From contig KK106982.1 in NCBI GenBank assembly GCA_000611775.1, positions 5,226,391 to 5,290,390 on the forward strand: a DNA stretch of 64,000 nt, written 5' to 3'. Positions 8,370 through 59,422 of the stretch are shown here, piece by piece (positions within the stretch are counted from its first letter, which is position 1; each line of letters begins with the position of its first letter). The notes beneath the pieces were generated by a model. It was not told the DNA's origin. It saw only the letters and a program-made list of their open reading frames with translations, and did no database searches. Made by a program: the position numbers and the translations under genes. The DNA is from Umbilicaria muhlenbergii. Taxonomy: Eukaryota > Ascomycota > Lecanoromycetes > Umbilicariales > Umbilicariaceae.

Positions 8370-8602
8370 NNNNNNNNNNNNNNNNNNNNNNNNNNNNNNN
8401 NNNNNNNNNNNNNNNNNNNNNNNNNNNNNNNNNNNNNNNNNNNNNNNNNNNNNNNNNNNNNNNNNNNNNNNNNNNNNNNNNNNNNNNNNNNNNNNNNNNN
8501 NNNNNNNNNNNNNNNNNNNNNNNNNNNNNNNNNNNNNNNNNNNNNNNNNNNNNNNNNNNNNNNNNNNNNNNNNNNNNNNNNNNNNNNNNNNNNNNNNNNN
8601 NN
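8370..8602. other. Assembly gap (run of N, 233 bp)
   Basis: A run of N lies about 120 bp beyond the palindrome. The nearby foldback and dispersed repeats probably caused the break. Apparent reading frames across it are meaningless. Confidence 0.98.
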
Positions 8603-26880: not shown

Positions 26881-27611
26881 AAATCCCGTTTTTTTGCCTA
26901 CCTTGCGTCTTCCACCGGGAGGCATATTGTTGGGCTTGTCCAGGTCCGTAGTACATGCACTGCCGAGTATATGTACACTAGCTCATGGTCAGGCTGTGGG
27001 CTCGGCACTGTTTTGTAATTTACCTGCATTCCGGGCCTTTTTGTTGGGGTGGTGCCAGCGCTGTTGGCAGGTTACGACGCTGATATACCATTGGGGAACA
27101 AGCGGGCGATTCCAGCATCATTGTTGTCTGTTCATGGCATAGTACAGTAAGTAATAGGACTGGCATTTGGCGAGGCGATGGAGGATATAGTCGTTACATA
27201 TTACTCATAGACACGCATGCTTGAACGATCGCGCTGTGTGAAATGGTGTCTTACTTGCAGGGATGGAAGGGATGGAAGTGAGGAGGGTGTGCAAGGGGTG
27301 GGAAATCTATCAGCCAAACACGCCAAGCTAGCTTCGGGTCTAAATTCTCGAACGTTCCGGATAAAGTCTAACCCGCCGGGATGTTCTTCGGGTAACTCTC
27401 AGTAGCGCGAAATGCAAACGGGACAAATGCTTAGATGGAAGTTGATCAGCGATTGCAAAGATCTTTGTCGGCAGTGACAATTAGTATGCCACCGCCCTGC
27501 GCCAGATAGCTAGACTCTCCAAGCATTTGGTCACGATTAGCTAATCCATCCCTTCATAAAGAGAAGCTTCGAGCTTGACTCGTCGTTCTCTATATCTCCA
27601 CCCTCAAGTCC
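26881..27611. other. Intergenic region between SLA1 and the pirin gene
   Basis: No gene is supported. The pyrimidine-rich sequence just before 27600 may belong to the pirin promoter or leader. Confidence 0.45.
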
Positions 27612-28804
27612 ATGAAGTTCCTCATCTCGTCCATCTTAACCTGCCTCGCAGCTGCCCTACTATTCTCCACTGACTTCTTCAATTCACAACTGGCCTCCAT
27701 ACGACAAATCACCCCCTTCACAACCCTATTGACCACAACCACCAACCAAACAACTCCCAACTCCTCCCACCCCACCTCCCTCGCTCTCCCCCTCACCCCA
27801 CCCTCCTTCTTCGCCCCCTCCCACCCCCCCAACATGTCCGTCCCCCGCCCCATCCGCCAAGCCTTCCTCGCCGTCGAGCAATCCGAAGGCGCCGGCGCCC
27901 GCGTCCGCCGCTCCATCGGCACCCCCACCCTCCGCCACCTCTCCCCCTTCCTCATGCTCGACCACTTCAGCATCGCCCCCGGCGCCGGCTTCCCCGACCA
28001 CCCCCACCGCGGCCAAGAAACCATCACCTACCTCCTGCACGGCGCCGTCGACCACGAAGACTTCGCCGGCCACACGGGCACCATCGAGGCGGGGGATCTG
28101 CAGTTCATGACTGCGGGCCGCGGCATCGTGCACGCGGAGATGCCGCGGCGCAATCCCGACGGCAGTCCTAATGTCGGGCTGCAGCTGTGGGTCGATTTGC
28201 CGAGGGGGTTGAAGACGTGTGAGCCGCGGTATCGGGATTTGCGGAAGGCGGAAATCCCGACGGTGGAGGTCGATGCCGGGAATGTCCGGGTCAGGGTTAT
28301 CTCGGGCCGCAGCCATGGGGTCGATAGTGTGCAGGAGTTGGCGTATACGCCGGTGTGGATCTTGGATGTGACGGTGCGGCCGGGGGGGAGGGTCGCGCAG
28401 GAGGTGCCGGGGGGGTGGAACGCTTTTGCGTATACGGTGGAGGGGGAGACGGCGTTTGGGGTCGGGGACGGGCGGACGACGGTGGGGAGGTTCCATAATG
28501 TTGTTTTTGAGCAGGAGGGGGATTGCGTGAGGGCGGAGGTGGCGGAGGGGGCTAAGGAGGATGGGCGGTTCAGTAAGTTCATCCCTTCTGGGGTTGTCGT
28601 ACTGTGGAGGTGTGGTCGCTAACTTTGATTGTAGTCCTCGTTGCGGGACTCCCGCTTGATCAGAAGGTCGTGCAGTATGGGCCGTTTGTGCTGAATTCGC
28701 AGGAAGAGGTTTATCAGGCCATGCTTGATTATCAGAGCCATTCGAATGGGTTTGAGAGGGCGGCGGGGTGGAGGAGTGAGATTGGGAAGTCGATGGTTCA
28801 TTAG
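27612..28804 (+). CDS. Pirin-family cupin protein
   Basis: Pirins are bicupin metal-binding proteins; some act as quercetin dioxygenases or transcription cofactors. One intron, 28573-28634, joins GRF to a conserved C-terminal exon (VQYGPFVLNSQEEVYQA). The N-terminal cupin carries the iron-site segments DHPHRGQET and GRGIVHAEMP, so all usual ligands appear present. The C-terminal cupin ends with the family's usual GFERAAGW region. From the first ATG (27612) the protein is 376 residues and opens with a hydrophobic, signal-like stretch followed by a Thr/Pro-rich linker. From the ATG at 27834 (MSVPRPIRQAF) it is 302 residues, matching ordinary pirins. The long form may be a secreted or mitochondrial isoform, or the upstream part may be leader. 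The gene is very GC-rich, with strong codon bias. Confidence 0.9.
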
Positions 28805-29163: not shown

Positions 29164-29884
29164 TCAATGCACCAGCACAACCGGCTTCCCCCTCTCCCAC
29201 GCCTGCAAGCTCTCCCTCACATTAACCCAATACCTCAACCTTACCGCCTCCTCCCTCGCCCTCTCCAAATCATCCTCCGCGAACGCCTCCCCCAACACCC
29301 GCACACTCTCCTCAATCCTCCCCTCATTCACCTCCCGCATCGGCTCCAACTCCTCCTCCCCCTCCGCCGCTTCGATCCCCTCCCGCATCTCCATCACCTC
29401 CATCAACAGCTCCGCATCCTCCACCCGCGCCCGCTCGTCCTCGGCGACGTCGATGCCTCGCTGTTGGAGCAGGTATTGCGCGCGCAGCAGCGGGTCTTGC
29501 AGCGTTTTGTAGGCGGCGTTGATGCGGGCGGAGAGGCCCTCGGCGCGGGGTTTGGAGGCGCCTGGGTGCCGGTCTGGGTGCGCGAGGGCTTGCAGTTGGA
29601 GGAACTCGGCGCGGAGGAGGCGGAGGTCGATGGGGAAGGGAACGCGGGAAGAGTTCGTAGTGGGTTTGCGGGCGGAGGGATTCTTTTGGGGGGGTGGTGG
29701 TGGTGGTGGTTGACGCATGTCTGGGTGAGAGATTATGGTGGGGTGGTCTGGTGGTTGGTGGTGATTTGTGCGTGCATAGCAGGCATGGAGGTCGTAGACG
29801 GGTGATGGGGCTAGTTGGAGCGAGGTCTGGTAGGAGGGCGGCTCGTAGTCGGCCTATGCTGCTGGCTGTCACTGTCCGTCTCAT
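29164..29884 (-). CDS. jac1: Mitochondrial J-protein co-chaperone JAC1/HSCB (frame break)
   Basis: Jac1 recruits the Hsp70 Ssq1 to the scaffold Isu1 to release Fe-S clusters in the mitochondrial matrix. The minus-strand sequence starts at 29884 with an Arg/Ser/Pro-rich presequence (MRRTVTASSIGRLRAALLPD), reaches THYELFP, and continues in another phase with the J domain (FPIDLRLLRAEF, then the HPD motif in LAHPDRHPG). The HSCB C-terminal helical domain follows (RINAAYKTLQDPLLRAQYLL) to the stop at 29164. The two phases meet near 29,650-29,670 without room for an intron, so one base seems gained or lost in a C-rich run. Because JAC1 is essential in yeast, a sequencing or assembly error is likelier than a true pseudogene. 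It is divergent from YOS9. Confidence 0.85.
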
Positions 29885-30284: not shown

Positions 30285-31896
30285 ATGAGACGGCGAATCA
30301 TCTTACTGGCCACGGCCAGTCTCGTGTACGGCAGTCAGAGCGTCTTCAGCGTCCATGATGATCTGCTTGCTTTTCCACAGGTACGGCCCCATACCTGACA
30401 TTGACCTGCGTTGACTTGGACCTCACTGACGGCGCTCACAGTATGAAGTAATTTTCTCCGACTCCTTCATTTCCGATACAGATGCAGAGTCGCGACTAGC
30501 ATACGCAGCATCAAGCTCCTCCACCGGAGCAAAACCCACGACCGAACCGCCAACCCCAGACCAAGAAACCTCCGGGGAGCTCGCCCAACGCGATGGCTCC
30601 AGCTCTTCCCCCCCAAACCCCCAAGACCCTAACTCCCCAGACTCCTCCGATACCTACGAGACCATGATCCTCAACGACAAGCGCTACCTCTGCACCATCC
30701 CCCGCGTCCAACCCCCCCTCCAAAACGAATCCTCCCACCCCACCACCCCCGCCGCCGCCGCCGACGACGAAAAAGAACTCGCCCGTGCCTCCGCTCGCGG
30801 CTGGGACCTCCTCAAAGATATGCAAGGCCACTGCCTCTACTACATCTCCGGCTGGTGGTCCTACTCCTTCTGCTACAACTCCCAAATCAAACAATTCCAC
30901 CAACTCCCGCCCACGAAAGGCTCCCCACCCTACCCACCCCTCGAAGACCCTTCTACCCCGTCGTATATCCTCGGCCAGTTCTCGGATCATCTACCTGATA
31001 ACCAACGCCCCCCTTCCACCCCCGACTCCGCGCATCATCATCATCATCCCAACGGTCTCGCTGAATCCACAGGCTCATCCCCCCCGCGGCCCGCCGGCAC
31101 CACCTCCCTCCAAGCCAAAGGCTCAAAACGCTACCTCGTGCAGTCCCTCTCCGGCGGCAGCACCTGCGACCTCACCGGCCGCGACCGCCGCGTCGAAATC
31201 CAATTCCACTGCCACCCGCAATCGCCCGACCGGATCGCCTGGATCAAAGAAGTCACCACCTGCGCGTATATCATGGTGGTTTATACCCCGCGCCTCTGCA
31301 ACGACCTCGCGTTCTTGCCGCCCCGCGAAATCGCCGCCAATAGTATCGCTTGCCAAGAGGTCGTCCCCGCCGCCGAGGTGGCGGACTGGGAGGCTCGCAC
31401 CGCGGCCGAGACCCACTGGGTCGACGCCGGCGCCGACGCGGGCGCGAAGGGCCGACCCGTCATCGGCGGGATTGTCGTCGGCGGGATGCAACATGTTGGC
31501 GCCGAGGGGCGGCGTCTCGCCCCGCCGCCGACGCAGGCGCCGCCGATCGATTCCGGGAAGAAGGATCTGGTGGCTCAGATGCGGCCGGGGGAGCAGGGGG
31601 GGAAGGTGCAGAAATTGGGGGATGAGGAGTTGAAACGGATGGGGTTTGAGCCCGAAGATGTCGAGGCGTTGCTGCAGGAGATTCAGGATATGGCGGAGGG
31701 GAAGGGCTGGAGGGTGGAGTTGGTGCAGGTGGGGGGGGAGAGGGAGTTGAGGGGGGTGGTGGCTGTCTCTTATAAACATCTAGATGTGTATAAGAGACAA
31801 GTGTTTATTGGACGGTGGGAGGGGGATGGGGAAGAAGGGGTGGAGGGGGGGAAGAGGGGGGAGGGGAGTGAGGAGGTTTATAAGGATGAGTTGTGA
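30285..31896 (+). CDS. yos9: ER lectin YOS9/OS-9 (MRH domain), with inserted adapter artefact
   Basis: Yos9 binds trimmed mannose on misfolded glycoproteins and hands them to the Hrd1-Hrd3 ubiquitin ligase in ER-associated degradation. Exon 1 (30285-30380) encodes a signal peptide (MRRRIILLATASLVYG). The intron is 30381-30441. Exon 2 begins YEVIFSDSF and contains the MRH lectin domain at about residues 155-350: GWWSYSFCYNSQIKQFHQL, TCDLTGRDRRVEIQFHC and CAYIMVVYTPRLC, including the Gln, Arg and Tyr mannose-site residues and the disulfide cysteines. The protein ends in KDEL, a luminal ER-retention signal. Bases 31763-31801 insert 13 in-frame codons (VSYKHLDVYKRQV) that match two head-to-head Tn5 mosaic ends and should not be taken as native. 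The length of about 516 residues is near yeast Yos9. Confidence 0.93.
31763..31801. other. Head-to-head Tn5 mosaic ends (library adapter artefact)
   Basis: CTGTCTCTTATAAACATCT (31763-31781) matches the reverse complement of the 19-bp Tn5/Nextera mosaic end with one mismatch. It is followed directly by AGATGTGTATAAGAGACAAG (31782-31801), the forward mosaic end with one extra base. No transposon body or 9-bp target duplication accompanies it. The 39-bp length keeps the frame open, so gene callers would translate it. Confidence 0.95.
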
Positions 31897-33250
31897 GGGG
31901 TTCGGTGGCTGGGGTGGTGGATGGAATGTGGAAAGGGGGTGGGCATGGTCGGGCGTCCTTGGGGGTTTACCGTGGTGTTGGGGTTGTTGTGTAGGTATAT
32001 GGTGTTCTTGCAGTGGGCTGTGCTGAAAATCGAAGATCCGTTGCTACTGTTCACGTCTGTACTTTTCACGAAGACATGCATGCGGATCTCAATCCGGGAA
32101 GAAACCTGCCCTGCTGGTCGGCGCTAGCCTCTGGGGTCCAAAATCTCATCCGTAGTGAGAGAGATTGGGGATGAGGTCTCCAGGCGTGTTTGATGGATAA
32201 CACCAGGAGAGAAGGGTAGAAATCGCCAGTCGAGGGAGATCTGGTATGCCTGCGACGCCTGGGATTGAATATTCAACACAGCCACAAGTTGAAATCCAGG
32301 TGAGAAGAGTCATATGAAGTAAGTAAAGTTGATCTATGTAAGAGGTCTGTGTGGTTGTAAGATACTCATACTCACTAAGTCAAAGGAAGATATCACATAA
32401 ATGACATTAAGATGTTCTTGACAGGATCAGAATTTGATAGAGAGAAAGGCGGGTGGAAGTTGATCGCAGTTATCATTAATGAGAAAATAAAGCAGAATGT
32501 GGATGAGTGTATGATAGACAGAGCTCAGGAGCAAAAGAAGAAAGTTAAGCTGGTGAGTGAGCAGGAGGAATTGAATCATCTTTAAATGACTCAATTTGAT
32601 GATGAATTGAAAGATAATGATTTCTAGCATGAGAACTCCTATTTACATGTGTACTGATGCTTGCACTACGCAGAAGATCCCCCTTGACTATCAGGTGTCC
32701 ACAAGAAATTGAAATAGCCAAGTCAGTGTTTAAGAAAAAACAAATTCATCACTCTTTCTGCTCATTGTTCCTTGAATGGCCCTGGTAGAACCAAATATCT
32801 TCTACGGTACTCTAACAACCGCTGTTGTGTATTGAGCAACCCTAACACGGTGATACTGTCAAGGAGCGGCGTGTAATTGAGACAGAGCAGATCAGCCTGC
32901 ACAAGGTTATAGATGAATGATTGCATCGCCCTGTAGCAAGTTATGTAAAGGAGAGGGGCGTAGCTGTTACTGAGCACACACATTGTTTAATCCGTGAGCT
33001 GTGATAGGGGATGAAACACTTTGAGCTAAGTCGAGAAGGAGAAGGAGAAGGAGAAGGAGAAGAAGAAGTAGTGAAAGATAATCTTGCGAAGCACTTCCAG
33101 ACTACAGAATAAGAGCTTCCTCGAGTGCTACAACTTCCTGCACTGATTTCATGAAGGCGATGAGAGTATAAAGACCCTTTGAAGATGATTATAAACCCTT
33201 AGACCGGTTCAGCACGTACTATCTCACAAAAGCAACAGCAGAAGCGGCAA
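31897..33250. other. Gene-poor spacer with possible repeat remnant
   Basis: No gene is supported in this spacer. Bases 32280-32640 are AT-rich with many TGA/TCA words like the left-hand repeat block, suggesting a small decayed repeat remnant. A GAGAAG-type microsatellite lies at 33033-33070. Confidence 0.45.
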
Positions 33251-36788: not shown

Positions 36789-37529
36789 TTACATCTCCCC
36801 CATCCCCACCCCCTCCACCTCCTCCACACTCCTAACCTTCACCTCCATAACCCTCAACACCGTAAACCTCAGCTTACTCCTCGCATGCTTAACATGCCTC
36901 TGCCTCCTCTTCGTCTTCTCAATCACCCTCATCGGCTCGCTCTCCACCCCCAAAACCCTCGCTCGACACTCAAACAACCTCGGATCCAGATACGCCTTCT
37001 TCCCGTTCCCCATCTTCCCTGGTATGGGGTTTCCGGGCGCCGAGGCGGCCCGCAGCGTGTAGTCGCGGCTGCCGAGTACGGTCGCCCGGTCCAGGCGCAA
37101 GATGTCCCCGGGGAGAACGGACGGCATGTGGAAGGGGAGGCGGACGGTATCGCCGGGGGTGAGCAGGTAGGGGCGGGAGTGGATGTGCGCGGTTATGTAG
37201 TGGGGCGATTGGGCGTGGAGGAGGGGGAGGAGGCTGCGGATTTCGGCGGTGAGGGGGGTTGAGGGGGTTGAGGGGGCGTCGTGGGTGGTTGGTGGCGTGA
37301 GGGACGGTTGAGAAGCGCTGGAGGTAGTTTGGGGGTTGTTAGGTGGGCGCGATGATCCGGCGGATTGGTGGGCGCGGTATGTGGAGAGGGGTGAGGGCGG
37401 TGGTGAGGGATCAGTGGTATGGGAGGTTGTTGTGAGTCGGGCGCGGAGGGGGAGAAGGAAGGTTGGTGGGAGGGAGGTTGGTTGCCATTGCGTTTCGAGA
37501 ATGGCTCGTTTGATTGTTCGCGTGAGCAT
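36789..37529 (-). CDS. mrpl49: Mitochondrial large-subunit ribosomal protein bL21m
   Basis: This is a structural protein of the mitochondrial 54S subunit. It is a single exon of 246 codons. The N-terminus is a basic, Ser/Thr-rich presequence (MLTRTIKRAILETQWQ, then RARLTTTSH) followed by a Pro/Thr/Ser linker. The bL21 core starts near residue 105 (PYLLTPGDTVRLPFHMP, VLPGDILRLDRATVLGSRDY) and ends with the basic RNA-binding tail KTKRRQRHVKHARSKLRFTV, characteristic of fungal MRPL49. The C-terminus is Val/Glu-rich. Length and motif order fit the family, and no lesion is seen. It is transcribed away from NSA2, with starts about 200 bp apart. Confidence 0.9.
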   Translation of the reverse strand: MLTRTIKRAILETQWQPTSLPPTFLLPLRARLTTTSHTTDPSPPPSPLSTYRAHQSAGSSRPPNNPQTTSSASQPSLTPPTTHDAPSTPSTPLTAEIRSLLPLLHAQSPHYITAHIHSRPYLLTPGDTVRLPFHMPSVLPGDILRLDRATVLGSRDYTLRAASAPGNPIPGKMGNGKKAYLDPRLFECRARVLGVESEPMRVIEKTKRRQRHVKHARSKLRFTVLRVMEVKVRSVEEVEGVGMGEM

Positions 37530-37732
37530 CTTGGAGGTGTTCTGGTTGTTTGTGGAACGGTGATGCTGTGGATGTAAAGTATTCTATCGAGTCACTTCGT
37601 TGTTTCTCGATCTTCAAGATGTCTTCGACGCTAAGCTTAAACGAGATTAAGGCGATATTGAATCCGAACTTTTTGCAGGTCGCCGCAGGAACTCATGTCC
37701 AGCAGCATTGACTTAGATCAAACACATTCAAG

Positions 37733-58648: not shown

Positions 58649-59422
58649 TTGGTGAGTACCATCAGCCGATCTGCTGCATCTCCCCGCTGTCCTACCTACA
58701 TAAACAAAGAATCACTCATGCAGGTCAAGATGAGCTTATATCAACATCCTCGCTTCCCCACCTCTTCTACGCTCTTCCCCATCATTGAACAACTTATTTC
58801 GAATACTCACATTACTACAAACCCACACCCTCATGGAACCCCTGCGGCATCGCCCCATCCAGTTCGTCGCGAGCAACCCGGATCCTCCACCTCCTTCTCA
58901 AGGCACGTCATCCTCACAACCCACCATCTTCTCCAAGTTAGCAAACACATGGAGAACTCATTCCTGAATACAGAGAACCGGCCCCGTCATCACACCCCCA
59001 TGTGGACCTGCTCCATCTGTTCCCGCACCATGCAGGCCCAAAACATCACCGCCCACACGAACGGCAAATCTCACACGCAGAAACTCAACGCTGTTGACGC
59101 GGCACAGAGGCTCGCGTTTGAACAATCTGTGGCGGAGCCGCAGTTGGCCGCGGAGGCTGTTGCAGCTGAGGCCGTTCCAGCTGCGGCTCCTGAGGCGGGA
59201 AAGAGCAAGAAGTCTAAGCGGAAGGGACGGAGGAATCATGCGTCGTCGGCGGGGAGATCGCAAGGTGGAGGCGGGGGCGGAGGGGGGGGCTATTCGTATT
59301 CGGTCGGCTATTCGTACTCGGAGGACTGTTATGGTGCGGTGTGTGGTGGGGGTCAGGACTGGTCGGTTTGTGATAAGGATTGTGGGTGGTGTGGGCATTG
59401 TATACATGGCGCTTCTTTTTAA
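58649..59422 (+). CDS. C2H2/U1-type zinc-finger protein with C-terminal CGWCGHC motif
   Basis: A 257-codon frame. The first about 100 residues are Pro/His/Ser-rich and may be leader; starting at the methionine at 58949 (MENSFLNTENRPR) is equally plausible. A single zinc finger follows: MWTCSICSRTMQAQNITAHT then GKSHTQKL, matching the CX2CX12HX5H U1/matrin spacing of RNA- or nucleic-acid-binding proteins. Then comes an Ala/Glu-rich linker, a Lys/Arg/Ser stretch (GKSKKSKRKGRRNH), a Gly/Tyr/Ser-rich low-complexity region, and a cysteine-rich tail (SVCDKDCGWCGHCIHG). That CGWCGHC tail is shared by a group of uncharacterised fungal zinc-finger proteins, as I recall. The function is unknown. Confidence 0.65.
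   Translation: MVSTISRSAASPRCPTYINKESLMQVKMSLYQHPRFPTSSTLFPIIEQLISNTHITTNPHPHGTPAASPHPVRREQPGSSTSFSRHVILTTHHLLQVSKHMENSFLNTENRPRHHTPMWTCSICSRTMQAQNITAHTNGKSHTQKLNAVDAAQRLAFEQSVAEPQLAAEAVAAEAVPAAAPEAGKSKKSKRKGRRNHASSAGRSQGGGGGGGGGYSYSVGYSYSEDCYGAVCGGGQDWSVCDKDCGWCGHCIHGASF

Follow-up and report, generated by a model that had tools for sequence, protein, structure and literature searches.

Head-to-head Tn5 mosaic ends in a YOS9-like gene of the Umbilicaria muhlenbergii assembly are very probably library sequence of mate-pair type

Introduction

The Tn5 mosaic end (ME) is a 19-bp word derived from the ends of Tn5, an engineered hybrid of OE and IE. Two copies, set head to head, were recognized in a first-pass annotation of a 64,000-nucleotide stretch of U. 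muhlenbergii DNA (the window; C2:5226391-5290390 in a 34.79-Mb assembly of seven contigs), inside a gene resembling that for the ER lectin YOS9. The question raised by this locus is whether such a word, within an open reading frame, is native coding sequence, the trace of a real transposon insertion or a product of library preparation and, in the last case, which kind of library left it there. The ME pair in the YOS9-like gene is no biological feature. It is with near certainty a library artefact of one kind or the other, mate-pair or ordinary tagmentation, and the 38-39 bp concerned are very probably the sequence of a Nextera Mate Pair-type junction adapter and not native DNA.

Results

The mosaic-end pair and its host gene

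The features at the locus, with their positions in the window, are:

30664-31896, + strand: open frame, YOS9/OS-9-like ER lectin (PRKCSH/MRH domain, C-terminal KDEL), holding the junction from about residue 367
31763-31781, - strand: Tn5 mosaic end, 18/19 identical, outer end at 31781
31782-31800, + strand: Tn5 mosaic end, 18/19 identical, outer end at 31782
31601-31999, + strand: G-rich, C-poor stretch round the junction (31800-31899: 58 G, 1 C)

The two MEs occupy 31763-31800 in the head-to-head arrangement first noticed from the letters, and a scan of the 64-kb window with up to three mismatches gave two matches, both belonging to this pair. Shuffled sequences gave a mean of 0.02 matches, and two matches occurred in 0 of 100 shuffles. 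Each copy is one base off the canonical word, which counts against an adapter origin. The first deviation is an A for C at 31775, while the second is an A at 31800 that can be read either as a substitution or as the insertion of one A ahead of the G at 31801, the latter reading giving the 39 bp of the first-pass annotation.

The frame remains open across the pair, which it translates as VSYKHLDVYKRQV, and its product terminates in YKDEL. Residues 55-168 of the product match Pfam PRKCSH (E=2.6e-17), and a PDB search of the frame matched six sequences (best E=1.8e-20) under the names ER lectin 1, OS-9, ER quality-control lectin and OS-9 homolog. The prediction of a YOS9/OS-9-like ER lectin made at the outset holds on the strength of these sequence matches. 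Among the PDB matches listed, the matched stretches reach residue 247 at most, and the junction lies about 120 residues beyond. The true start of the gene may be upstream of 30664. A search with six peptide patterns detected no prokaryote relatives of the protein.

Recurrence across the assembly

The first-pass annotation had proposed a genome-wide search for the ME and had suspected adapter-derived joins elsewhere. The search was run with an 18-base ME word at up to two mismatches over 34.79 Mb, and gave at least 28 matches (10 exact, 16 with one mismatch and 2 with two), compared with 0 for the reversed control word; all such genome-wide word counts are lower bounds. Under uniform bases, 0.001 exact, 0.05 one-mismatch and 1.4 two-mismatch matches are expected, and since 1.4 are expected where 2 were found, the two-mismatch matches may be due to chance. 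The 28 matches sit at 24 loci, at all of which the sequence was inspected. A 14-base inner remnant of the ME was matched 22 times genome-wide (reversed control 1, expected 0.26) and brought seven further loci, giving 31 ME loci; the outer 14-mer was matched 15 times (control 0). The suspicion was therefore well founded, with some 30 loci in addition to the YOS9 site. It was not borne out at the gap near 8370 in the window, where an adapter join had also been proposed: the edges of this gap (8370-8602) are without an ME end, and the window contains no ME beyond the pair.

The palindromic junction core, allowing two mismatches, was found at four places genome-wide, all of them head-to-head pairs, while its reversed control gave one forward match and one reverse match:

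Window: head-to-head core
C1:5477958: head-to-head core
C1:5478089: head-to-head core, 131 bp from the preceding one
C4:4400145: head-to-head core

Locus L010 (C1:5477567-5478515) has two ME junctions 131 bp apart within a tandem duplication, which may have arisen as the assembler looped through the adapter words. A clean copy of this tandem junction pair (C1:5477948-5478116) was found nowhere else in the genome. Separately, an AT-rich repeat carries an identical, exact ME at four of its places (L011, L012, L013 and L015), a pattern that a single contaminated consensus of the repeat would leave if it had been put into the assembly four times.

Gap edges, index tails and library type

Runs of N adjoin the ME at 14/31 loci. 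In every one of these 14 the outer adapter end points toward the gap and the inner end lies on genomic sequence, which is the geometry expected of contigs that end in adapter. The other 17 loci, which have no contact to a gap, speak against the adapter reading.

The strongest rival, itself improbable, is that ordinary Nextera short-insert adapters were incompletely trimmed and that the assembler joined two read ends. The ME word is common to both kits, PMC11575248 printing it with the standard tails behind it, and most of the loci carry a single ME, as this explanation would have it. Read-through would, however, enter the index-side tails. Four i5/i7 tail words were absent, at up to two mismatches, from 31/31 ME loci, and the ME followed by an i7-type tail gave 0 matches genome-wide at up to three mismatches, the i5-type tail having been checked within the 31 loci alone. 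The four head-to-head cores are, in addition, what circularization would produce. With four such pairs and no index tails, a Nextera Mate Pair junction, which we take to be the ME joined to its own reverse complement over 38 bp, fits better than ordinary read-through. Thus, of the original proposal of a tagmentation library with incomplete trimming, the adapter origin stands, but plain read-through probably gives way to a mate-pair junction. As for the accompanying statement that such read-through peptides are known as a signature of contamination, a literature search on adapter peptides turned up nothing to back it, which does not amount to disproof.

A TruSeq adapter word was also tried and rejected, with three matches of three mismatches each compared with two for the reversed control.

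Tn5 biology and chance resemblance

A real Tn5-derived insertion in the organism, be it a transposon mutant or a natural relative of IS50, is highly improbable, even though the ME word comes from the ends of Tn5. The outer ends adjoin directly with no cargo between them, the 9-mers on either side of the pair differ, and no 9-bp target duplication was found in the flanks; 14 of the ME loci, moreover, lie at assembly gaps. Neither the exact OE nor the exact IE occurs in the genome. The OE word gave 18 matches at up to three mismatches, and its reversed control gave 20. Of these 18 matches, 10 are the ME itself or resemble it, and the best of the others is one site with one mismatch. The IE word did exceed its control (17 matches of two to three mismatches against 6), which is a point in favor of an insertion, but one of these matches is an ME site, the best two sites have two mismatches, and no IE with one mismatch was found genome-wide either. 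The Tn5 transposase DNA-binding domain (PF14706) gave 0 matches in the genome, in a search in which E. coli, among 14 controls, was positive.

That the site is native YOS9-like coding sequence resembling the ME by chance is extremely improbable, despite a frame that is open through the site up to the C-terminal KDEL, given two adjoining 18/19 matches where 0.02 are expected per window and the presence of the ME word at some 30 further loci.

Insertion or replacement

The first-pass annotation had the junction adding 13 in-frame codons to the lectin. This is unproven, as two other comparable sites suggest replacement. The first is the AT-rich repeat: L011, L012, L013 and L015 have the ME between flanks where the copy at L035 (C4) has 19 different bases. 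For this comparison 12 loci, on both strands, were taken from 40 matches, and three have both flanks. Two of these belong to the ME copies just named, which leaves L035 as the single copy on which the argument for replacement from this repeat depends; the other nine loci diverge beyond the left flank. The second is a 14-base ME remnant at C1:5325176 (L070, C1:5323182-5327182, near 1995-2008), inside an AIM18/chalcone-isomerase-like gene whose sole PDB match is yeast AIM18. The frame of this gene is broken at the remnant. Its left piece matches Pfam Chalcone_2 up to model position 116 and continues for 12 residues; the right piece is read in a different frame and takes up the match at model position 140, so that about 10 model positions are apparently missing if the 12 residues are gapless. 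Taken together, the repeat and the gene indicate that an ME can stand where native bases were, and at both sites it seems, from these alignments, to replace them.

At the YOS9 site, a plain 38-bp insertion would break the frame to the KDEL, while one of 39 bp or a replacement would not. The open frame is itself a point against the adapter reading; its preservation could be due to a replacement, to a 39-bp insertion or to chance (1 in 3). A frame test of insertion versus replacement, covering the window and 14/30 other loci (eight translated), is to be read in the light of the few stops in G- or C-rich frames.

The possibility that two distant pieces of DNA were fused at the YOS9 site was considered and rejected, 31400-32200 matching itself once and its remaining seven matches in the genome being adapter sequence alone. 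This result is compatible with a small deletion.

Strand-asymmetric composition

Over the 100 bp that adjoin the ME on its inner side, the G-C imbalance exceeded the 95th percentile of the background (0.29) at 19/28 distinct sites, which are the 31 loci with the four places of the AT-rich repeat counted once (Mann-Whitney p=1.2e-9; background: 20 random stretches of 2 kb, giving 380 bins). The YOS9 site has values of 0.52 to the left of the pair and 0.58 to the right. The nine sites without strong skew, six of them AT-rich and three with a G+C of 0.51 to 0.56, are to be set against the adapter reading. A likely cause of the enrichment is that strand-asymmetric DNA was poorly covered, such that a few adapter-bearing reads would set the consensus.

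A related pattern was observed in contiguous GC-rich islands of the window, in which the + strand tends to pass from C-rich to G-rich. The islands, with frames on either strand, are listed with their composition as read along the + strand:

27579-28622, + strand: C-rich to G-rich
29164-29853, + strand: C-rich to G-rich
30430-31896, + strand: C-rich to G-rich
36789-37583, + strand: C-rich to G-rich
58649-59422, + strand: C-rich to G-rich

At a threshold of 0.25 and a G+C of at least 0.48, C-to-G transitions versus the reverse numbered 7 vs 1 in the window, 3 vs 0 in 20 random stretches and 23 vs 9 in 20 ME-bearing stretches; these counts are small, and the sampling of the ME-bearing stretches was biased. 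The same lean was seen in nine of nine settings in both the window and the ME-bearing stretches, and in eight of nine in the random stretches, the remaining setting giving no transition. Frames of either orientation show the flip, as YOS9 (+) and 29164-29853 (-) illustrate. We tentatively suggest, as a possibility somewhat short of even, that the artefact reflects an unusual trait of this genome, GC-rich gene islands that tend to flip from C to G whatever the strand of the gene, and that adapter became consensus here as such DNA sequences poorly. While the adapter itself is not new, a C-to-G flip inside genes that is independent of gene orientation may be; a literature search on the flip found nothing about fungal genes, judged by title.

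Discussion

Two papers (PMC4074385, PMC6298255) describe a procedure in which tagmentation adds biotinylated junction adapters, the fragments are circularized and sheared, and the pieces that bear the junction are enriched. The junction seen here would have formed when two MEs were joined outer end to outer end as tagmented fragments circularized. Untrimmed junction reads would then have entered the assembly, or a gap-filling step, at places where genomic coverage was probably poor, and adapter reads would have been turned into consensus, in this case in the very G-rich 3' part of the YOS9-like gene.

Beyond a warning about the assembly, the ME pair is of little interest. As a matter of data hygiene, about 30 loci of a chromosome-scale assembly carry adapter, often at gaps or at G- or C-rich spots, and since the artefact leans to G-/C-rich, strand-asymmetric DNA, other stretches of that kind may also be unreliable in this assembly. 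Some of the adapter copies lie within real genes or at their ends, namely the YOS9-like and AIM18/chalcone-isomerase-like genes together with a cryptochrome-DASH/photolyase-like and an Mso1-like gene, so that predicted proteins hold artificial peptides or broken frames. With native sequence seemingly displaced at two sites, the ME word should not be assumed to be a simple insertion. Regarding the latter two genes, the C-terminal end of the cryptochrome-DASH/photolyase-like frame runs into the ME at L062 (C1:10179447-10183447, near 1993-2011), and a frame with the Mso1 Sec1-binding region does so at L060 (C1:2535710-2539710, near 1992-2010).

Set beside known systems, the host gene has both the MRH (PRKCSH-like) domain and the C-terminal ER-retention signal of a YOS9/OS-9 ER lectin. 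The Tn5/IS50 ends OE and IE share with the word seen here the bases from which the ME was engineered, but ME-specific bases are present here, and the exact native ends and the transposase DNA-binding domain were not found. A standard Nextera read-through adapter has the 19-bp ME itself in common with these loci; it differs in its index tails, seen at 0/31, and in that the paired MEs here abut directly. The Nextera Mate Pair junction adapter differs from the window pair by the two single-base deviations, and from the other loci of the assembly in that most hold one ME or a truncated ME. It is nevertheless the closest likeness, with 36/38 bases and the head-to-head order in common, no tails seen, and further copies at many loci of the assembly, gap edges among them.
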